Of a stretch of 39,491 bases of DNA, positions 20,561-36,702 are shown piece by piece. The stretch is from a virus. The notes below the pieces were generated by a model, which was not told where the DNA came from, made no database searches, and worked only from the letters and a program-made list of their open reading frames with translations. The position numbers and the translations under genes are program-made. Every line of letters starts with the position of its first letter. The stretch's first letter is position 1. The DNA lies in IMG/VR virus record IMGVR_UViG_3300001680_000198, positions 1 to 39,491 of that record; one strand, given 5' to 3'.

Positions 20561-20845
20561 ATGAATAACATTGTCCACAGTCGATTTGTGGCTAGTGTTT
20601 CAGATCTAAAAAAGAATCCAATGGAAGTTGTTAGCAATGGATTCGGTGAAGCTGTAGCTATTCTGAATAGGAATAATCCAGCTTTTTACTGTGTTCCTGC
20701 TGATATGTACGAAAGGCTGATGGATTTAATTGAAGATAAGGAACTGATCAAGCTAGCTGAACAAGTCGATACTGAAGAAACAGTAAAGGTATCTTTAAAT
20801 GAGTTACGAGCTAGAGTTCGCAAAAGCAGCTCTCAAGAAGTTTGA
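20561..20845 (+). CDS. Phd/YefM-family antitoxin
   Basis: A 94-residue antitoxin. The N-terminal half (SRFVASVSDLKKNPMEVVSNGFGEAVAILNRNNPAFYCVPADMYERLMDLIED, about 7-60) is the Phd/YefM DNA-binding fold. The charged C-terminal tail (KVSLNELRARVRKSS) should wrap around and neutralise the toxin. It overlaps the toxin gene by 47 bases, as in StbD/StbE-type pairs. A promoter-like TTGGCT-16-CATAAT lies at about 20520-20547; such pairs autoregulate. On an extrachromosomal element it would act in post-segregational killing. Confidence 0.88.
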   Translation: MNNIVHSRFVASVSDLKKNPMEVVSNGFGEAVAILNRNNPAFYCVPADMYERLMDLIEDKELIKLAEQVDTEETVKVSLNELRARVRKSSSQEV

Positions 20846-21065
20846 TAAATTAAATCCTCAAATCGCTGATCAATTTATTCGTAAGTTGGAAGCAATACTA
20901 GAGAATCCGAAGATACCTAAAAATAAACTGAGTGGATCTAACGATCTATACAAGATAAAGCTTAGGTCCGCAGGATATAGATTGGTGTACCAAGTTATTG
21001 ATGACAGGGTAGTGATATTAGTCCTTGACGTTGATAGACGGGACACCATCTATAAAAATATGTAA
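20799..21065 (+). CDS. relE: RelE/ParE-superfamily toxin
   Basis: An 88-residue toxin with the RelE/StbE pattern: SYELEFAKAALKKFDKLNPQIADQFIRKL, then KLSGSNDLYKIKLRSAGYRLVYQVIDDRVVILVLDVDRRD. The K and R residues of YKIKLRSAGYRLVYQV and the final R-R pair are those usually implicated in ribosome-dependent mRNA cleavage. The start is inside the antitoxin gene, and a terminator follows at 21074-21104. It looks complete. Confidence 0.9.
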   Translation: MSYELEFAKAALKKFDKLNPQIADQFIRKLEAILENPKIPKNKLSGSNDLYKIKLRSAGYRLVYQVIDDRVVILVLDVDRRDTIYKNM

Positions 21066-23243: not shown

Positions 23244-24587
23244 GTGCCAATAGGAAAAATAAGCACCGTGTTTAAAGTATATGACGCAATGATGGGTAGT
23301 GGTAAAACTACTCAAATTATAGAAAACATTAGAACAGCAAACAAAGACCAAAACTTTTTATACATCACTCCCTTACTTGATGAATGTCATCGTATCTCAG
23401 GAACAACTTATGATCCTGAGGATAATTTGAAACGTCCATTAATTACGACCCATGATGATACAAGTGTCCATTATGCTTATTTAGATGATGCACCTTTAAA
23501 AGACAGACGTTTTAAACATCCAAGCTATAAAGGTGGTAATAAAGCTGAAAGCTTACAGTATCTAATTAAAAACAAAGAGAATGTAGTTAGTACCCATCAA
23601 CTATTTATGAACTTAACCCCTTCTATGCTTGAAGATGCTAAGGACTACATATTAGTTATTGATGAAACAATCCAGGTTTATGATGTGTATTCTGAATACA
23701 CAGCTACAGAATTAGAAGCTATCTTCCGTTTAGGATGGATCTTCATTGATGATGATGATGTAACTCTTCGCTTTAACCGTGAAAACTACGGTAATAATGG
23801 CGGTGATCCAACAGGAACTAAATATGAAAACCTAGCAACCATGTGTGATCTAGGTCAGCTCTTATATGTAGACCAAAAACTAATTGTTTGGGAACTCAGC
23901 ATTGATACTCTAAGAGCTTTTAAAGAAGTTTGGATCGCTACTTACATGTTTGAAGGCTCTCAAATGTCAGCGTATTTGAAATCGTATGGCGTTGATTATG
24001 AGCTAATTCGTTTTGGTAACAAGCCTTCTCAAATTAAGCATTTAGTCACTATCTCAGATAACAAATTTATTAATGAAGTTGGTACTAAAACTACAGCATT
24101 AAGTTCAAGTCAATTTAAAACAAACAAGAAAGTATTGTGTGAACAGTTATCTAAGAACTTAGACAATTATTTCCGTAACCATGTAAAAGCTAAGAAGTCA
24201 GATAGACTTTGGACTTCATTTAAAGAAGCTCAAGGAGCTATAGCAGGATCTCGTTATAAAGACGAATGGTTAGCCTTCAATACAAAGGCGACTAATGAAT
24301 ACAAAGACAAAACCAACTTAGCTTATTTGATGAACCTGTATCCTAATCCAATGGTAGTTAAAGCTTCAGCAATGAAAGGGTATCCAGTTAAAGAAGACAT
24401 CTTTGCTCTTTCTGAAATGGTTCAATGGATATGGCGTTCTGCTATCCGTGAAGGTAATCCAATCAATATTTATGTACCAAGTTCAAGAATGCGTACTTTG
24501 TTACAGCGTTGGTTGAATGATGAATTTGAAATTCAATCAATTGAATCTCAAGAAGCTGAAGTATTAGAACAGTTGGAATTAGTTTAA
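23244..24587 (+). CDS. helicase-like replication protein (SF2-type P-loop NTPase)
   Basis: A 447-residue ATPase. Walker A AMMGSGKTTQ is at 15-24, a YITPLLDEC segment (40-48) fits motif Ia, Walker B ILVIDET (136-142) is a DEAD-like variant, and QWIWRSAIREG (394-404) resembles the arginine-finger motif VI (Q..GR..R) of SF2 helicases. It starts with GTG preceded by AAGGA and follows the operator-bearing promoter and DnaA box, so I take it as the initiator or replicative helicase of the plasmid state. No primase or polymerase is present; host enzymes must do the synthesis. It is not a standard Rep_3 or RepA protein. Confidence 0.72.
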   Translation: MPIGKISTVFKVYDAMMGSGKTTQIIENIRTANKDQNFLYITPLLDECHRISGTTYDPEDNLKRPLITTHDDTSVHYAYLDDAPLKDRRFKHPSYKGGNKAESLQYLIKNKENVVSTHQLFMNLTPSMLEDAKDYILVIDETIQVYDVYSEYTATELEAIFRLGWIFIDDDDVTLRFNRENYGNNGGDPTGTKYENLATMCDLGQLLYVDQKLIVWELSIDTLRAFKEVWIATYMFEGSQMSAYLKSYGVDYELIRFGNKPSQIKHLVTISDNKFINEVGTKTTALSSSQFKTNKKVLCEQLSKNLDNYFRNHVKAKKSDRLWTSFKEAQGAIAGSRYKDEWLAFNTKATNEYKDKTNLAYLMNLYPNPMVVKASAMKGYPVKEDIFALSEMVQWIWRSAIREGNPINIYVPSSRMRTLLQRWLNDEFEIQSIESQEAEVLEQLELV

Positions 24588-24606
24588 ATAATAGTGAAAC
24601 CTATTT

Positions 24607-24630
24607 TAGCCTGTATTATCGGGCTATTTT
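24607..24630 (+). terminator. weak terminator after helicase gene
   Basis: TAGCC (24607-24611) pairs with GGCTA (24622-24626), followed by TTTT. The short stem makes this a modest candidate. Confidence 0.4.
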
Positions 24631-24658
24631 AAGGATTGCTTATCATATTTGCAAAGTA

Positions 24659-24687
24659 TTGACAAGTTTTTTATAATAATTTATAAT
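24659..24687 (+). promoter_or_regulatory. consensus promoter of the antirepressor operon
   Basis: TTGACA (24659-24664), a 17-base spacer, then TATAAT (24682-24687): a perfect sigma-70 promoter with no evident operator over it. Such an apparently constitutive promoter before an antirepressor needs control after initiation, which the leader could provide. Confidence 0.85.
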
Positions 24688-24693
24688 TTAACA

Positions 24694-24848
24694 CATTAAC
24701 AAAACAATAAAAACATTATAAGAGTCCATAGGCAGACTCATTAAAACTCACCCATGCCTATAAACAAAACACAACTCAATATATTAAGTCTGCATCCAAA
24801 TAGGATTATAAGCGGACTCAAAATTATTTTATTCAAAGGATATAAAAT
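24694..24848 (+). ncRNA. self-complementary leader, candidate c4-like antisense RNA
   Basis: The 5' part holds a hairpin GAGTC-(8)-GACTC (24722-24739). Its loop ATAGGCA (24728-24734) is complementary to TGCCTAT (24755-24761), which covers the start codon of a leader peptide. GAGTCC (24722-24727) also complements GGACTC (24814-24819), and GCAGACT (24732-24738) complements AGTCTGC (24787-24793). The order promoter, RNA with inhibitory segments, small ORF, ant matches the c4-icd-ant immunity operon of P1/P7. Sequence identity to known C4 RNA was not tested. Confidence 0.55.
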
Positions 24849-24852
24849 ATGA
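24754..24852 (+). CDS. 32-aa leader peptide coupled to antirepressor
   Basis: A short frame, starting MPINKTQLNILSLHPNR, whose TGA overlaps the antirepressor ATG (ATATGA). No Shine-Dalgarno is obvious, so it is uncertain whether it is translated. Its start region is the predicted target of the upstream hairpin loop. In P1 the icd frame similarly overlaps ant and must be translated for ant expression; this ORF could play that part. Confidence 0.4.
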   Translation: MPINKTQLNILSLHPNRIISGLKIILFKGYKI

Positions 24853-25610
24853 CTTCATTATCATTACAAACTGCTAACTCAACTCCATTTAATACAGCTA
24901 TTAACACAGCTAACAATATTGTGAAAATGACAAGCCAAGAAATAGCAGACCTAGTTCAATCAAGACATGACAATGTGAAACGTACTGTAGAACGCCTTGC
25001 AGAATCGGGTGTAATTCAACTTCCTCCAACGGAGGGAGTTAAAAATCACTTAGGACAAGTTGTAGCTAACTATGTATTTGAAGGTGATCAAGGTGAACGT
25101 GATACCACAATTATTGTTGCTCAACTCTCACCACAATTCTTAGGTCAAGTTGTAGACCAGTGGAGATTCTTAAAACAGCAAGTTCTTGAAATGAACAAAC
25201 CTTCTTACATGATTGAAGATCGTGTTGAACGTGCTAAGAAATGGATTGAAGAAGAGACAGCTAAACAGGCTATTGAAATTAAGTTGATTGAAGCTAAACA
25301 AGTAATTGAAGTGATTCAGCCTAAAGCAGATGTGTATGACATCATTTCAAATAGCTCAAATACATACACCATAAGAGATACAGCTAAACTTCTTAAAATG
25401 CGCCCTAAAGATCTTACTGACTGGCTACAGGCTAACGGATGGATCTATGGGAAGTCTTCAGCATCTTACAGACCATTTGCAGCGCATGACCGTAACCATT
25501 TAAAACTTGTAGCTTCAAATTATGGAACTCAAGTTCGAGTGACAGGTAAAGGCTTAGTTTGGTTAGCACGTAAACTGAAAGTAGAGCTTGATTCAAGTGA
25601 TTTTGAATAA
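24849..25610 (+). CDS. ant: phage antirepressor (Rha N-terminal, KilAC/ANT C-terminal domain)
   Basis: A 253-residue regulator. Residues about 25-115 match the Rha family (VKMTSQEIADLVQSRHDNVKRTVERLAESG... YVFEGDQGERDTTIIVAQLSPQF). A helical linker (about 125-165) leads to a KilAC/ANT domain (about 175-250: TIRDTAKLLKMRPKDLTDWLQANGWIYGKSSA... YGTQVRVTGKGLVWLARKL). Such proteins inactivate the prophage repressor or act as early regulators. AAAGGA lies 8 bases before ATG. The consensus promoter and structured leader upstream imply post-transcriptional control. Confidence 0.88.
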   Translation: MTSLSLQTANSTPFNTAINTANNIVKMTSQEIADLVQSRHDNVKRTVERLAESGVIQLPPTEGVKNHLGQVVANYVFEGDQGERDTTIIVAQLSPQFLGQVVDQWRFLKQQVLEMNKPSYMIEDRVERAKKWIEEETAKQAIEIKLIEAKQVIEVIQPKADVYDIISNSSNTYTIRDTAKLLKMRPKDLTDWLQANGWIYGKSSASYRPFAAHDRNHLKLVASNYGTQVRVTGKGLVWLARKLKVELDSSDFE

Positions 25611-31832: not shown

Positions 31833-31990
31833 TTTATAAATCATATAAAAAACATTAGTTTATAGTTGATTTAGGTACATTGTACCTATATAATAACAAG
31901 CATAAGGTGAAGAGATATAAAAAGCCTTAGAGGTACAACGTGTACCGACTGCCAGGACTAGCAGAAAACCTTAGTCTAGGATTTTACAAA

Positions 31991-32500
31991 ATGAACGCAT
32001 TCGACTTTTCTAATAAAGCTTCTGATTCTTCTAAAAACTTTCGTCTTGAAGCTTTCAGCTTTACTTTTGATTTTGGCTTAAACATCTATTTCGATGATAT
32101 GGACGACCTTCGTGACATCATTGGCGATACAGAAATCGAGTTTTGGCAAGTTGAAGGTTTACGTGAAGATACGTACATGGATGTAGACAACTTTAAAGAC
32201 CTTGAGACAGCTATAGAGCTAATCATGGAAAGGCATTTTCAAGAAGACCTAGACCTATTCAAACAGTTAAAAGCAGAGGGATACGTTTCTGATTTATCTC
32301 AAGCTCAAGAATGGCACGATGAAAACCAATTCTGTGAAGATATGTCAGATTATGACTTCGGTCACTATCTTATGCACGATGTAAGCTGCATTGAGATCCC
32401 TGAAGCATTGCAAGGTTATATCTCCTATGAAGCTTATGGACGTGATGCCTTAATAAATGACTTTGTACGTGTAGGCAATTACATCTATAGCAACCATTAA
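31991..32500 (+). CDS. ArdA-like antirestriction protein
   Basis: This acidic protein of about 169 residues has a C-terminus, IPEALQGYISYEAYGRDALINDFVRVGNYIYSNH, that resembles ArdA proteins (YIDYEAIGRDL... pattern). It is rich in Asp and Glu throughout, as expected for a DNA mimic that binds type I restriction enzymes. AGGA lies at the proper distance before ATG 31991; an upstream in-frame GTG at 31940 seems too early. The N-terminal domain is diverged. It heads a plus-strand series of small genes and lies near a restriction-modification gene, which fits entry and establishment. Confidence 0.68.
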   Translation: MNAFDFSNKASDSSKNFRLEAFSFTFDFGLNIYFDDMDDLRDIIGDTEIEFWQVEGLREDTYMDVDNFKDLETAIELIMERHFQEDLDLFKQLKAEGYVSDLSQAQEWHDENQFCEDMSDYDFGHYLMHDVSCIEIPEALQGYISYEAYGRDALINDFVRVGNYIYSNH

Positions 32501-33516: not shown

Positions 33517-36500
33517 TTACATAAAGTCTATTTGATCTATCTCTTCCATAATTTCAGAAGTTCTTTGAAGCGTGGCAATGATCTTCTGATAATGCTTAAT
33601 ATCTTCAAATTGTAGAGCTTGACCTTTCCTGTCTTTAAGCCATTTTTGTGCAGGTTGATAGCCACCAATATAGAAGTTCCAGGCTACTTCAGGAACATTG
33701 GCAAAATACTGTTCATCGTTGATATAGACATTTCCATCTTTATAAACATGCTTCTCAACAATATTGTCACCGCCTTCGGGATATTGAGAAATAGCTTTTA
33801 AAGTCGAGTCTTCCATAAGATGAAGTTTTCTTAACTGGTTTCCTAATCCAACTAATTGACCAAATGTATTTTGATCTTTTGGGTATGGAACTCGTGGAAA
33901 ATCAATTTTGAGAAAATTATTATATTTTTCTCTATAAATTCTTGAATGAAGAATAGCATATACATAATCTAATATATCTATAGGTGAAAAATTTTGACTT
34001 TCAGTAGATATTTCATCCGAAAATTTTCTTTTTATAATGCTACTAATTTTGTCTATATATTTTTTCTCTAAGTTGGGTTTCCTACATATTTTGCCTTCAG
34101 TTGTTAAATCCTCATAATAAATATAAAGAGGAAGATTCATGGCATTTGAGCCAGTTTTTGAAGAAAGAAAAATCGCTTCCGTGATCGTATTAGTAACAAA
34201 AATATGAGCAAAAGATTGATCTTTATGTGCTTTAGTGCAAAGCAGACCTATGTTTCCTTCTGATTGTAAGTAGTTTCGCATAATTTTATCTACAGGCCAT
34301 CCTACAAAACCTCTTGAATTACCGGTGTAGTAAATATATTTTTTATCAAATGGCCTGTAGTTAATATGCTCTACACACGTCTGATCTTTCAAAGAATCTT
34401 GGATATCTTTTTTAGCCCAATCATATTTCCAATCTCTTACATCAGCAGGAAGATTGTATTTTTTATAAAAATTAGATTTTTCTAACATAATTATATCTAG
34501 AGCTGATTGCAAACATTTGTCAGCAGTGTCTTGGATGCATAAATTATCTCTCTTTGTTACTATTCCATTACCCTGAACAGGAAATAAGTCACTTATTTTT
34601 ATACCTTTCTCATAAATACTTTTTAATGTCGTGTCTTGAGGAATGAAGTAATATTGTTCCCCTACTGCTTTAATTTCATTGAAATTTATATCATTTAAGC
34701 TTGATTCAGAGAGGAAATTATATTTATCTTCACGTTTACCAAATACATCATAATGAAAGACTTGACCTAGTTCTGAATTCTTTTTATTTCCTGTTTTAAT
34801 AAATATATTAATAGATACGCCTTGCTGGATATCAAATACATTTTTATCTACACTTCCATCTGGAGAAACTTCTTTTTTATTCCCATTACCGTGAAGATCA
34901 ATGGTATAAATCTTGTCGTAAGTTTTAAGTAGATTCCAGCGCATACCTCTAAATGTTGGATTATCTAAAAAGCCATGAGGATTAATGAAAGCAAGTACAC
35001 CACTTCCATTTTTTTCAATAAAATTCTGACCATATCTTAAGAACTTTACATAGTCATCATTAATCCATTTAGAATTTTTTTCTTTTAATTTTTCTTTTCC
35101 ACCTGGCTCTTTCTTATAGTCTTCCATTAAACTCATAATCCATTCACCTTTATTAGCACTTTCTCCGCTATAAGGTGGATTTCCAATAATACACATGACA
35201 GGTGTATCACGTTTAATATGGTTCGCTTCATTTGCTTCAGCACTGAGCCAATTCGCAAATAAAGTACCAGTATCAGGGTGACTTTCTTCTAAACTATTGG
35301 TGAGATAAACTTTCAGTCGTTGCTGAGTATTTCCTTGTGGTTTGTAACCTGTCTCTGATAACAATAAGTTAAGCTGCAAGTGAGCCATTGCATAACTCGC
35401 CATAAGCAATTCAAAACCGTTCAAACGTGGTATCAGATCTTTTTCTACATAGTTACTCCATATCCCTTGCATACCTTCAAAATCTTGATAGATGTGTTTA
35501 ATGACATGGGAAAGGAATGTACCTGTACCTGTGGCAGGATCAAGGATCTGAACTTTATGAACTTCTTTGTCTGTTGTGATATAGCCGTCTTTATGTCGTC
35601 TATCAGTTGTTGGGTTTTTAATTTTAATAGTAGTTTTAGCTGTATCTGCTAGTCCTTCTGAAAGACCAAATTCAGTTTTAAGAACTTCATCTACTGCTCG
35701 AACAATGAAATCAACCACAGGTTCAGGTGTGTACCATACGCCACGTTTTTTACGTTCTTTAGGGTCATATTCGCTTAGAAAAGTTTCATAGAAATGAATA
35801 ATCGGGTTGTTCATTCGTGTTGAACGCCCATAAGTCTTTAAGATTTCCTCAACATTACAATGCAAGAAAATGTCTGCAAGGCTATCAACAATCCATTTGA
35901 TACGATCATCAATGTCTGGACCTGCAATATAACCAAAGAGTCTACGCAAGAAAGGGTTCGATTTTGGAATCAGTTCCGCAGCTTCTTGTCGTGAGAATGT
36001 TTTTAGAGTTGAGTCATGCAATCGGGCTGCAAACATTCCATAAGCAATGGTCTGAGCATATACATCGGCAAAACCTTTTGGCTTAATATCATGAATAAGA
36101 ATCTGCTTAAAGCCTTCAAAGTGAGCTTTTAGAGTACTGTCTTCCTGCGTATCTTCGTCATTTGTTACTGCTTTTTCTAATATTTCAGCAAGTAATTTTG
36201 CTTTGTTTGCCATCATTTTGGCTAACTTTTGCGGACTTTTGATTGTCTGCCCAAGATAGATACTGAAATTTTTAATCAGGCTCTCAAACATTGAGAAGTT
36301 TTCAGGCAAGGCTTTGATCTGATTTCCTGAAATTTCAGCAATAGAAACTTGAGCAACTAATTCACTTTCTTGATAAAAATAGAAGTCCAGGTAGTTGGTG
36401 AATACGATATTGTTTAAGGACGCTTTATAGCGGTCAAATTGTTCTTTATTTCCTGTTTTTTTCTTACCTTCTAAGTCTGTATCACCAATATCTTTAGCTT

Positions 36501-36702
36501 CAATAAAGCCAATAGGAATACTTTTTTTCTCAATAATATAATCAGGCGCACCACAAGTTTGACGTTTAGGTTCATTAATTACCATATAGTCTGAGCCAAT
36601 AATTGACTCTAATAAACTTTGCAGATCCCCTCGAAAGCTATGTTCGGTTGTTTTACCTGTAATAAATTTTGCATTTACTGCCTGAATATAATTTTGGATC
36701 AT
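33517..36702 (-). CDS. single-chain restriction-modification enzyme (type IIG / type ISP-like)
   Basis: This 1061-residue fusion combines cleavage, adenine methylation and target recognition. The N-terminal nuclease shows PD (53-54) and E68-A-K70, the PD-(D/E)xK core. A helical linker leads to an N6-adenine methyltransferase with GVWYTPEPVV (321-330), motif I ILDPATGTGTF (386-396) and motif IV NPPY (508-511). The C-terminal 500 residues resemble the type ISP target-recognition region. There is no helicase domain, so it is shorter than LlaBIII-type enzymes. It would stabilise the plasmid and exclude other phages, and would methylate the phage's own DNA. Confidence 0.9.
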   Translation of the reverse strand: MIQNYIQAVNAKFITGKTTEHSFRGDLQSLLESIIGSDYMVINEPKRQTCGAPDYIIEKKSIPIGFIEAKDIGDTDLEGKKKTGNKEQFDRYKASLNNIVFTNYLDFYFYQESELVAQVSIAEISGNQIKALPENFSMFESLIKNFSIYLGQTIKSPQKLAKMMANKAKLLAEILEKAVTNDEDTQEDSTLKAHFEGFKQILIHDIKPKGFADVYAQTIAYGMFAARLHDSTLKTFSRQEAAELIPKSNPFLRRLFGYIAGPDIDDRIKWIVDSLADIFLHCNVEEILKTYGRSTRMNNPIIHFYETFLSEYDPKERKKRGVWYTPEPVVDFIVRAVDEVLKTEFGLSEGLADTAKTTIKIKNPTTDRRHKDGYITTDKEVHKVQILDPATGTGTFLSHVIKHIYQDFEGMQGIWSNYVEKDLIPRLNGFELLMASYAMAHLQLNLLLSETGYKPQGNTQQRLKVYLTNSLEESHPDTGTLFANWLSAEANEANHIKRDTPVMCIIGNPPYSGESANKGEWIMSLMEDYKKEPGGKEKLKEKNSKWINDDYVKFLRYGQNFIEKNGSGVLAFINPHGFLDNPTFRGMRWNLLKTYDKIYTIDLHGNGNKKEVSPDGSVDKNVFDIQQGVSINIFIKTGNKKNSELGQVFHYDVFGKREDKYNFLSESSLNDINFNEIKAVGEQYYFIPQDTTLKSIYEKGIKISDLFPVQGNGIVTKRDNLCIQDTADKCLQSALDIIMLEKSNFYKKYNLPADVRDWKYDWAKKDIQDSLKDQTCVEHINYRPFDKKYIYYTGNSRGFVGWPVDKIMRNYLQSEGNIGLLCTKAHKDQSFAHIFVTNTITEAIFLSSKTGSNAMNLPLYIYYEDLTTEGKICRKPNLEKKYIDKISSIIKRKFSDEISTESQNFSPIDILDYVYAILHSRIYREKYNNFLKIDFPRVPYPKDQNTFGQLVGLGNQLRKLHLMEDSTLKAISQYPEGGDNIVEKHVYKDGNVYINDEQYFANVPEVAWNFYIGGYQPAQKWLKDRKGQALQFEDIKHYQKIIATLQRTSEIMEEIDQIDFM

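Follow-up and report, generated by a model that had tools for sequence, protein, structure and literature searches.

How an antirepressor gene with a strong promoter of its own might be restrained by the RNA at the head of its transcript is the question raised by the leader of ant in a 39.5-kb IMG/VR virus record (the window, that is, the whole stretch of DNA analysed here). Judged from sequence, the window and its relatives are podovirus-like phage-plasmids of Acinetobacter. The relatives, which include A. baumannii DS002 plasmid pTS37365, are Acinetobacter plasmids of 37–45 kb that share the window's capsid protein, and the window carries a head-to-tail connector gene. On one strand of the window, a promoter, a hairpin, a target complementary to its loop and a PF03374 gene follow one another in the order of the C4–icd–ant operon, and a first-pass annotation held that the locus obeys exactly the logic of phages P1 and P7, with three complementarities and a leader peptide coupled to ant.

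The antirepressor leader in the window

The sigma-70 promoter named in that annotation is present at the place given, with TTGACA (24659–24664) and TATAAT (24682–24687) separated by a spacer of 17 nt and matched at all 12 positions. The features of the leader and its surroundings are collected in Table 1. The hairpin followed by T-rich DNA that probably ends the upstream unit was read from the sequence and is not listed by the stricter rule of our terminator scan, which returned no terminator-like site in 24560–25000. The whole leader folds better than 200 of 200 shuffled versions (z = −4.3). The evidence of a single AT-rich sequence for such a pattern is weak, since a hairpin whose loop has a 7-nt complement further on occurs in 6.4% of shuffled leaders of 300 nt. 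Elsewhere in the window TGCCTAT occurs at chance level. The target overlaps no evident ribosome-binding site, and the stretch after it is C-rich and G-poor (13 C and 5 G in 55 nt), a bias that, measured as C minus G, is found in 5% of windows and hence is not rare.

Table 1. Features of the ant leader and adjoining DNA (positions are those of the window)
Feature	Position	Strand	Evidence
Probable terminator between the upstream gene (23244–24587) and the ant unit	24607–24630	+	Hairpin then T-rich DNA, read from sequence
Sigma-70 promoter, TTGACA-17-TATAAT	24659–24687	+	12/12 match; promoter-like sequence at the same position in aligned relatives
Exchangeable specificity cassette (hairpin, linker and target)	24720–24761	+	All 42 nt shared by four genomes; block replacement between L015 and L012
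Hairpin S1, stem GAGTC/GACTC (24722–24726/24735–24739), 8-nt specificity loop CATAGGCA	24722–24739	+	3/4 counted pairs changed on both sides
Helix S2, loop strand ATAGGCA	24728–24734	+	Covaries with 24755–24761; 6/7 pairs changed on both sides
Helix S2, target strand TGCCTAT	24755–24761	+	TGCCTAT, TGACTAT, TAGCTAT and TATTAGC match the four loop types
32-aa ORF (leader peptide of the first-pass annotation), probably not a gene	24754–24852	+	ATG intact only in type A; without Shine-Dalgarno
Second conserved hairpin, AGTCTGC ATCC..GGAT .. GCGGACT	24787–24818	+	RNAalifold; compensatory pair changes
Shine-Dalgarno of ant, AAAGGA	24835–24840	+	Sequence; ATG 8 nt downstream
Antirepressor ant, KilAC (ANT) domain	24849–25610	+	Pfam PF03374, 4.6e-19, residues 151–244

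Covariation across relatives

From plasmids, IMG/VR and genomes we assembled 24 element-bearing leaders belonging to this antirepressor family, a small collection of related members. They fall into four types, which we write as stem, loop and closing stem followed by the downstream target: type A, GAGTC-C-ATAGGCA-GACTC .. TGCCTAT (the window, L007, L015 and L018); type B, TGGG-GC-ATAGTCA-G-CCCA .. TGACTAT (most leaders); type C, GGTC-A-ATAGCTA-GACC .. TAGCTAT (L016); and type D, (A/G)GGG-N-GCTAATA-CCCT .. TATTAGC (L010, L193 and L201), so that type C is represented by a single sequence and type D by three. The stem of the hairpin (S1) is thus GAGTC/GACTC, TGGG/CCCA, GGTC/GACC or (A/G)GGG/CCCT, and the fifth pair of the loop–target helix (S2) is G-C, U-A, C-G or A-U across the types, with a U-G wobble in L050.

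Automatic alignment assigns the type A and type B stems of S1 to separate columns; for this reason, covariation was tallied over aligned stem segments in place of a covariance model, and RNAalifold, run on the unmodified alignment, served as a check. All leaders collected for the A–C group were included, L050 by manual addition because the pattern had not picked it up. On eight distinct stem segments, which were picked by type-specific patterns containing the target and hence lean towards pairing, 98.9% of the cells of S1 and S2 are paired, and 9 of the 11 pairs have changed on both sides. The covariation score of S1 and S2 together is 0.828, against a mean of 0.275 for shuffled versions (0 of 500 match it) and at most 0.201 for slid ones, and S2 in register pairs 160 of 161 cells, against at most 71 of 161 when slid. 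RNAalifold, given the plain alignment of types A–C, returns the S2 helix unaided together with a second hairpin (24787–24818) that is absent from the first-pass annotation. The second pair of this hairpin is G-C in most leaders, A-U in L016 and U-A in L194, and in L008 a G-U pair has turned into A-U. On this comparative evidence, the pairing of loop ATAGGCA with target TGCCTAT is genuine. The distance from target to the ATG of ant is nearly constant (81–89 nt in types A–C, 61–63 nt in type D), and a loop–target pair of the S2 kind is absent from one related group of leaders (L009 and L189).

Of the three complementarities first proposed, only that of loop and target (ATAGGCA/TGCCTAT in the window) holds, and it does so in all four types. 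GAGTCC (24722–24727) and GGACTC (24814–24819) are complementary in the window, as are GCAGACT (24732–24738) and AGTCTGC (24787–24793). Both matches are confined to type A, the window's own type, given that AGTCTGC and GGACT(C) form the two sides of a separate, conserved hairpin and the upstream halves are not conserved, and we reject them as conserved features. The 32-aa leader ORF is present where it was annotated, its TGA overlapping the ATG of ant (ATGA), but its frame is not conserved outside type A: the start codon is CTG in type B, where stops or indels break the frame in L003, L005, L006, L011, L013, L014, L019, L029 and L154, and in type C (L016) a TAG stop comes directly after the ATG. 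No Shine-Dalgarno sequence lies upstream of it. The leader peptide is therefore rejected as an icd and, as the ORF is lost in types B and C and lacks a Shine-Dalgarno sequence, control of ant through an icd-like leader peptide appears unlikely.

Cassette exchange and type specificity

The 42-nt type A cassette stands on three upstream backgrounds (the window and L007 share one, and L015 and L018 also carry the identical cassette), with upstream genes that are only about 55–65% identical. L015 (type A) and L012 (type B) share 98–99% identity in the 1.4 kb before the cassette and 99% in the 87 nt after it, but their cassettes are 65% identical; between L018 (type A) and L002 or L017 (type B), identity is 99% over 160 nt upstream and 99–100% in the gene, but 64% in the cassette. 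As the flanks are near-identical and the cassettes are not, hairpin and target move together as a small block, and these alignments show a hairpin–target cassette of about 45 nt to be exchanged as a unit. Estimated free energies of loop with target range from −7.3 to −9.6 kcal/mol for cognate and from −5.3 to +0.7 kcal/mol for non-cognate combinations, and by these estimates the four types are orthogonal. Types A and B differ by one base pair in the loop–target helix, so a few base-pair changes should suffice to re-type the switch. Exchange together with orthogonality is how a specificity determinant should look; neutral recombination also fits.

A strain carrying two different types, which would show their compatibility, was not found. 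Among 176 Acinetobacter genomes, stand-alone copies of the hairpin were not seen: exact matches occur only in two known leaders, and matches with two mismatches are about as frequent as with a reversed-pattern control. The leaders of chromosomal antirepressor relatives (L153 and L155–L173) show no comparable conserved element. A broad pattern search for the second hairpin returned mostly unrelated contigs and two genuine new cases, L050 and L093, which lie in front of antirepressors that belong to this family but end in other C-terminal domains.

Proposed model for the control of ant

We suggest that ant would be transcribed from its own strong promoter with a leader of about 155 nt holding a minimal hairpin–target RNA switch. 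Hairpin 24722–24739 would expose its loop, the last seven bases of which would pair with single-stranded 24755–24761, about 20 nt on. In cis, this would give an H-type pseudoknot (that is, a stem of 4–5 bp, 1–2 nt, a helix of 7 bp, 0–1 nt and a linker of 6–17 nt). All four types have this geometry, so the pairing can form in cis, and the two helices may form at the same time. In trans, the loop of one transcript would pair with the target of another, the hairpin acting, we infer, as an antisense RNA. Pairing would keep ant low, both in the lysogen and when a same-type phage superinfects, through transcription or translation of the leader and not by blocking a leader peptide; termination, translation and decay are the candidate steps. 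The leader RNA of a resident prophage may then act on a relative that arrives with a matching loop type, the loop serving as an immunity-type label, and phages of another loop type would escape. A role in trans would need either a released hairpin RNA or leader–leader contacts, and no terminator or known processing signal that would free the hairpin RNA was seen in the leader. Weighing the comparative evidence, we lean slightly towards a same-strand hairpin–target switch that restrains ant and has an immunity role in trans. Its likely mode of action is modelled on the leader RNAs of P1/P7 c4–ant, P4 CI and Gifsy-1 IsrK, to which we liken it. With rather less than even confidence, we further propose that the element represents a minimal class of phage immunity RNA, structurally unrelated to C4, in which a cassette of about 45 nt sets at least four heteroimmune types, works in trans when phage-plasmids co-infect and, with selection favouring new specificity, passes among them by recombination.

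The alternative that survives best, although we consider it rather unlikely, is a pseudoknot that acts only in cis. H-type pseudoknots acting in cis are exemplified by T4 gene 32 and IncI repZ. Here, such a structure would set the folding, stability or ribosome access of the leader, while types drift by compensatory change and neutral recombination shuffles them. This would explain all of the covariation equally well, and the geometry of the four types is that of coaxial H-type helices: the complement lies at the 3′ side of the loop and pairs with a downstream single strand, 1–2 nt precede it (a short loop 1), 0–1 nt follow it (a loop 2 near zero), the linker is A-rich and both helices covary. 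Neutral drift alone, however, gives no account of the repeated replacement of a 45-nt block or of an invariant 42-nt cassette on three backgrounds.

A same-strand switch with a role in trans has partial parallels in other phages. In satellite P4, seqB of the CI RNA pairs with seqA and seqC (PMC4825925); as in our model, the immunity RNA is part of the untranslated leader of its own target operon and pairs with sites in that leader. In P4, however, the genes controlled serve replication, control is by premature termination and the target is present twice, against an antirepressor and one target seen in the window. In the IsrK–orf45–anrP locus of Gifsy-1, the 5′ leader RNA of the antirepressor mRNA pairs with a segment further down and thereby has effects both in cis and in trans, and a Rho-independent terminator releases the small RNA, which activates translation through orf45 (PMC4825925). 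There, the antirepressor start and a small ORF overlap in an AUGA, an arrangement shared by type A, the window's type; unlike IsrK, the window's leader has no conserved ORF and, in 24560–25000, no intrinsic terminator that would release a leader RNA, and no sequence relation between the two was noticed. Chromosomes of A. baumannii carry C4-like Group 1 small RNAs with variable a′ loops (PMC5320573), which share the host genus and the variable loops with our element; those RNAs match the C4 model and are chromosomal, whereas the window's element does neither and sits on phage-plasmids.

Control of the IncI/IncB kind, in which the hairpin would be bound by a counter-transcript of the other strand so that a pseudoknot that activates ant cannot form, seems very improbable. 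A hairpin loop with a downstream complement and varying loop types is also the design of repZ (Asano and Mizobuchi 1998, as cited in a passage of PMC10724649), and there too the loop pairs with a downstream site and loop variants form specificity groups. Inc RNA, however, is transcribed from the opposite strand and controls a replication initiator gene. Between the window's hairpin and ant, no opposite-strand promoter-like site reading through the hairpin was found; minus-strand matches lie upstream of the hairpin and read away from it, and the TATAAT-like letters in the second hairpin are not kept in L005, L016 and L029.

Even less probable is a true C4–icd–ant operon, in which RNase P would process a C4 antisense RNA and this RNA would shut off translation of an icd-like leader peptide to which ant is coupled. 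Part of the resemblance that suggested P1/P7 logic does stand: as in those phages (Rfam RF01695 and RF03163), a small structured RNA and its target lie on one transcript running from the promoter to a KilAC antirepressor, the hairpin is promoter-proximal with its loop complement downstream, and in type A the ORF overlaps ant as ATGA. A further likeness is that differences of a few bases in loop and target yield orthogonal types, which in P1 and P7 takes 4 nt (as cited in a passage of PMC5320573) and which in the window's family is seen in four types, their energies and their cassette swaps. That the P1/P7 logic applies exactly is not supported. With the C4 model RF01695, a covariance search gave no match in the window and 14 related records, compared with 68.8 bits for P1 as positive control; Rfam scans of the window, with the gathering score, and of its leader, with E values as high as 10, yielded chance matches only, and a scan of four related loci yielded none. 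The three-stem C4 fold with its long outer stem (about 77 nt) is absent, its place being taken by a single hairpin of 4–5 bp with a loop of 8–10 nt. P1 is annotated (AF234172) in the order P1c4, a1,b1, C4, a2,b2, icd, ant; unlike this layout, the window's family has one conserved complementarity and not a/a′ and b/b′ double pairs, no upstream a1/b1 sites were seen, the target is within reach of a pseudoknot in cis and an ATG frame coupled to ant is open in type A only, without a Shine-Dalgarno sequence. As no C4 match, a single hairpin, a single complementarity and no conserved icd come together, the leader element, by these comparisons, is outside the C4 family. The least probable reading is that the pattern arose by chance (as the frequency among shuffled leaders allows for a single sequence) or is a DNA-level element, that is, inverted repeats kept for protein binding, because the pairing persists in one place through four sequence types, in one leader (L050) by way of a G-U wobble, and DNA-binding sites would conserve letters and not pairing.

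No Rfam family covers the element, and no description of it was found in the open-access literature searched. Its design differs from the classic P1 switch, and it probably sets which sister phages are excluded. If a same-strand immunity switch is indeed at work, leader RNA control of antirepressors would extend beyond P1/P7, P4 and Gifsy to a family of Acinetobacter phage-plasmids, and RNA-coded immunity specificity could be tested in a small, defined unit.

Further observations on the antirepressor loci

The ant proteins of the window and its relatives (24849–25610; L002–L019, L050 and L093) are three-part mosaics with a common N-terminal tag, MTSLSLQTQNSTPFNTAI; several unrelated-looking middle domains combine freely with several C-terminal ones, and the protein is thus shuffled like the leader cassette. 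The leaders of L009:2600-2935 (A. baumannii pPUMA0246_2) and L189:1720-2000 (an IMG/VR relative) form a fifth class with hairpins TATTCAAA..TTTGAATA and GTGACT..AGTCAC. In A. lwoffii pZS-1 (L008:3001-4290), which is typed as a mobilizable plasmid, an IS5-family element lies about 100 bases into ant, so that the antirepressor is broken and the leader intact. A. towneri pTT1-3-2 (L181, NZ_CP114603.1), which keeps part of the phage genes, carries a relaxase and shows no ant, is apparently a phage-plasmid turning into a plasmid. A RepM replication protein gene precedes ant in A. pittii pA1254_1 (L010:1783-2715), at the position that a helicase-like gene holds in most relatives. Elsewhere in the window, an ArdA antirestriction gene (PF07275) lies at 31940–32500, and a 1061-aa protein with the methyltransferase-type motifs DPATGTGTF and NPPY (33517–36702) looks like a restriction–modification enzyme. 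Two short overlapping genes at 20561–21065 resemble, by eye only, a Phd/YefM antitoxin and a RelE toxin.
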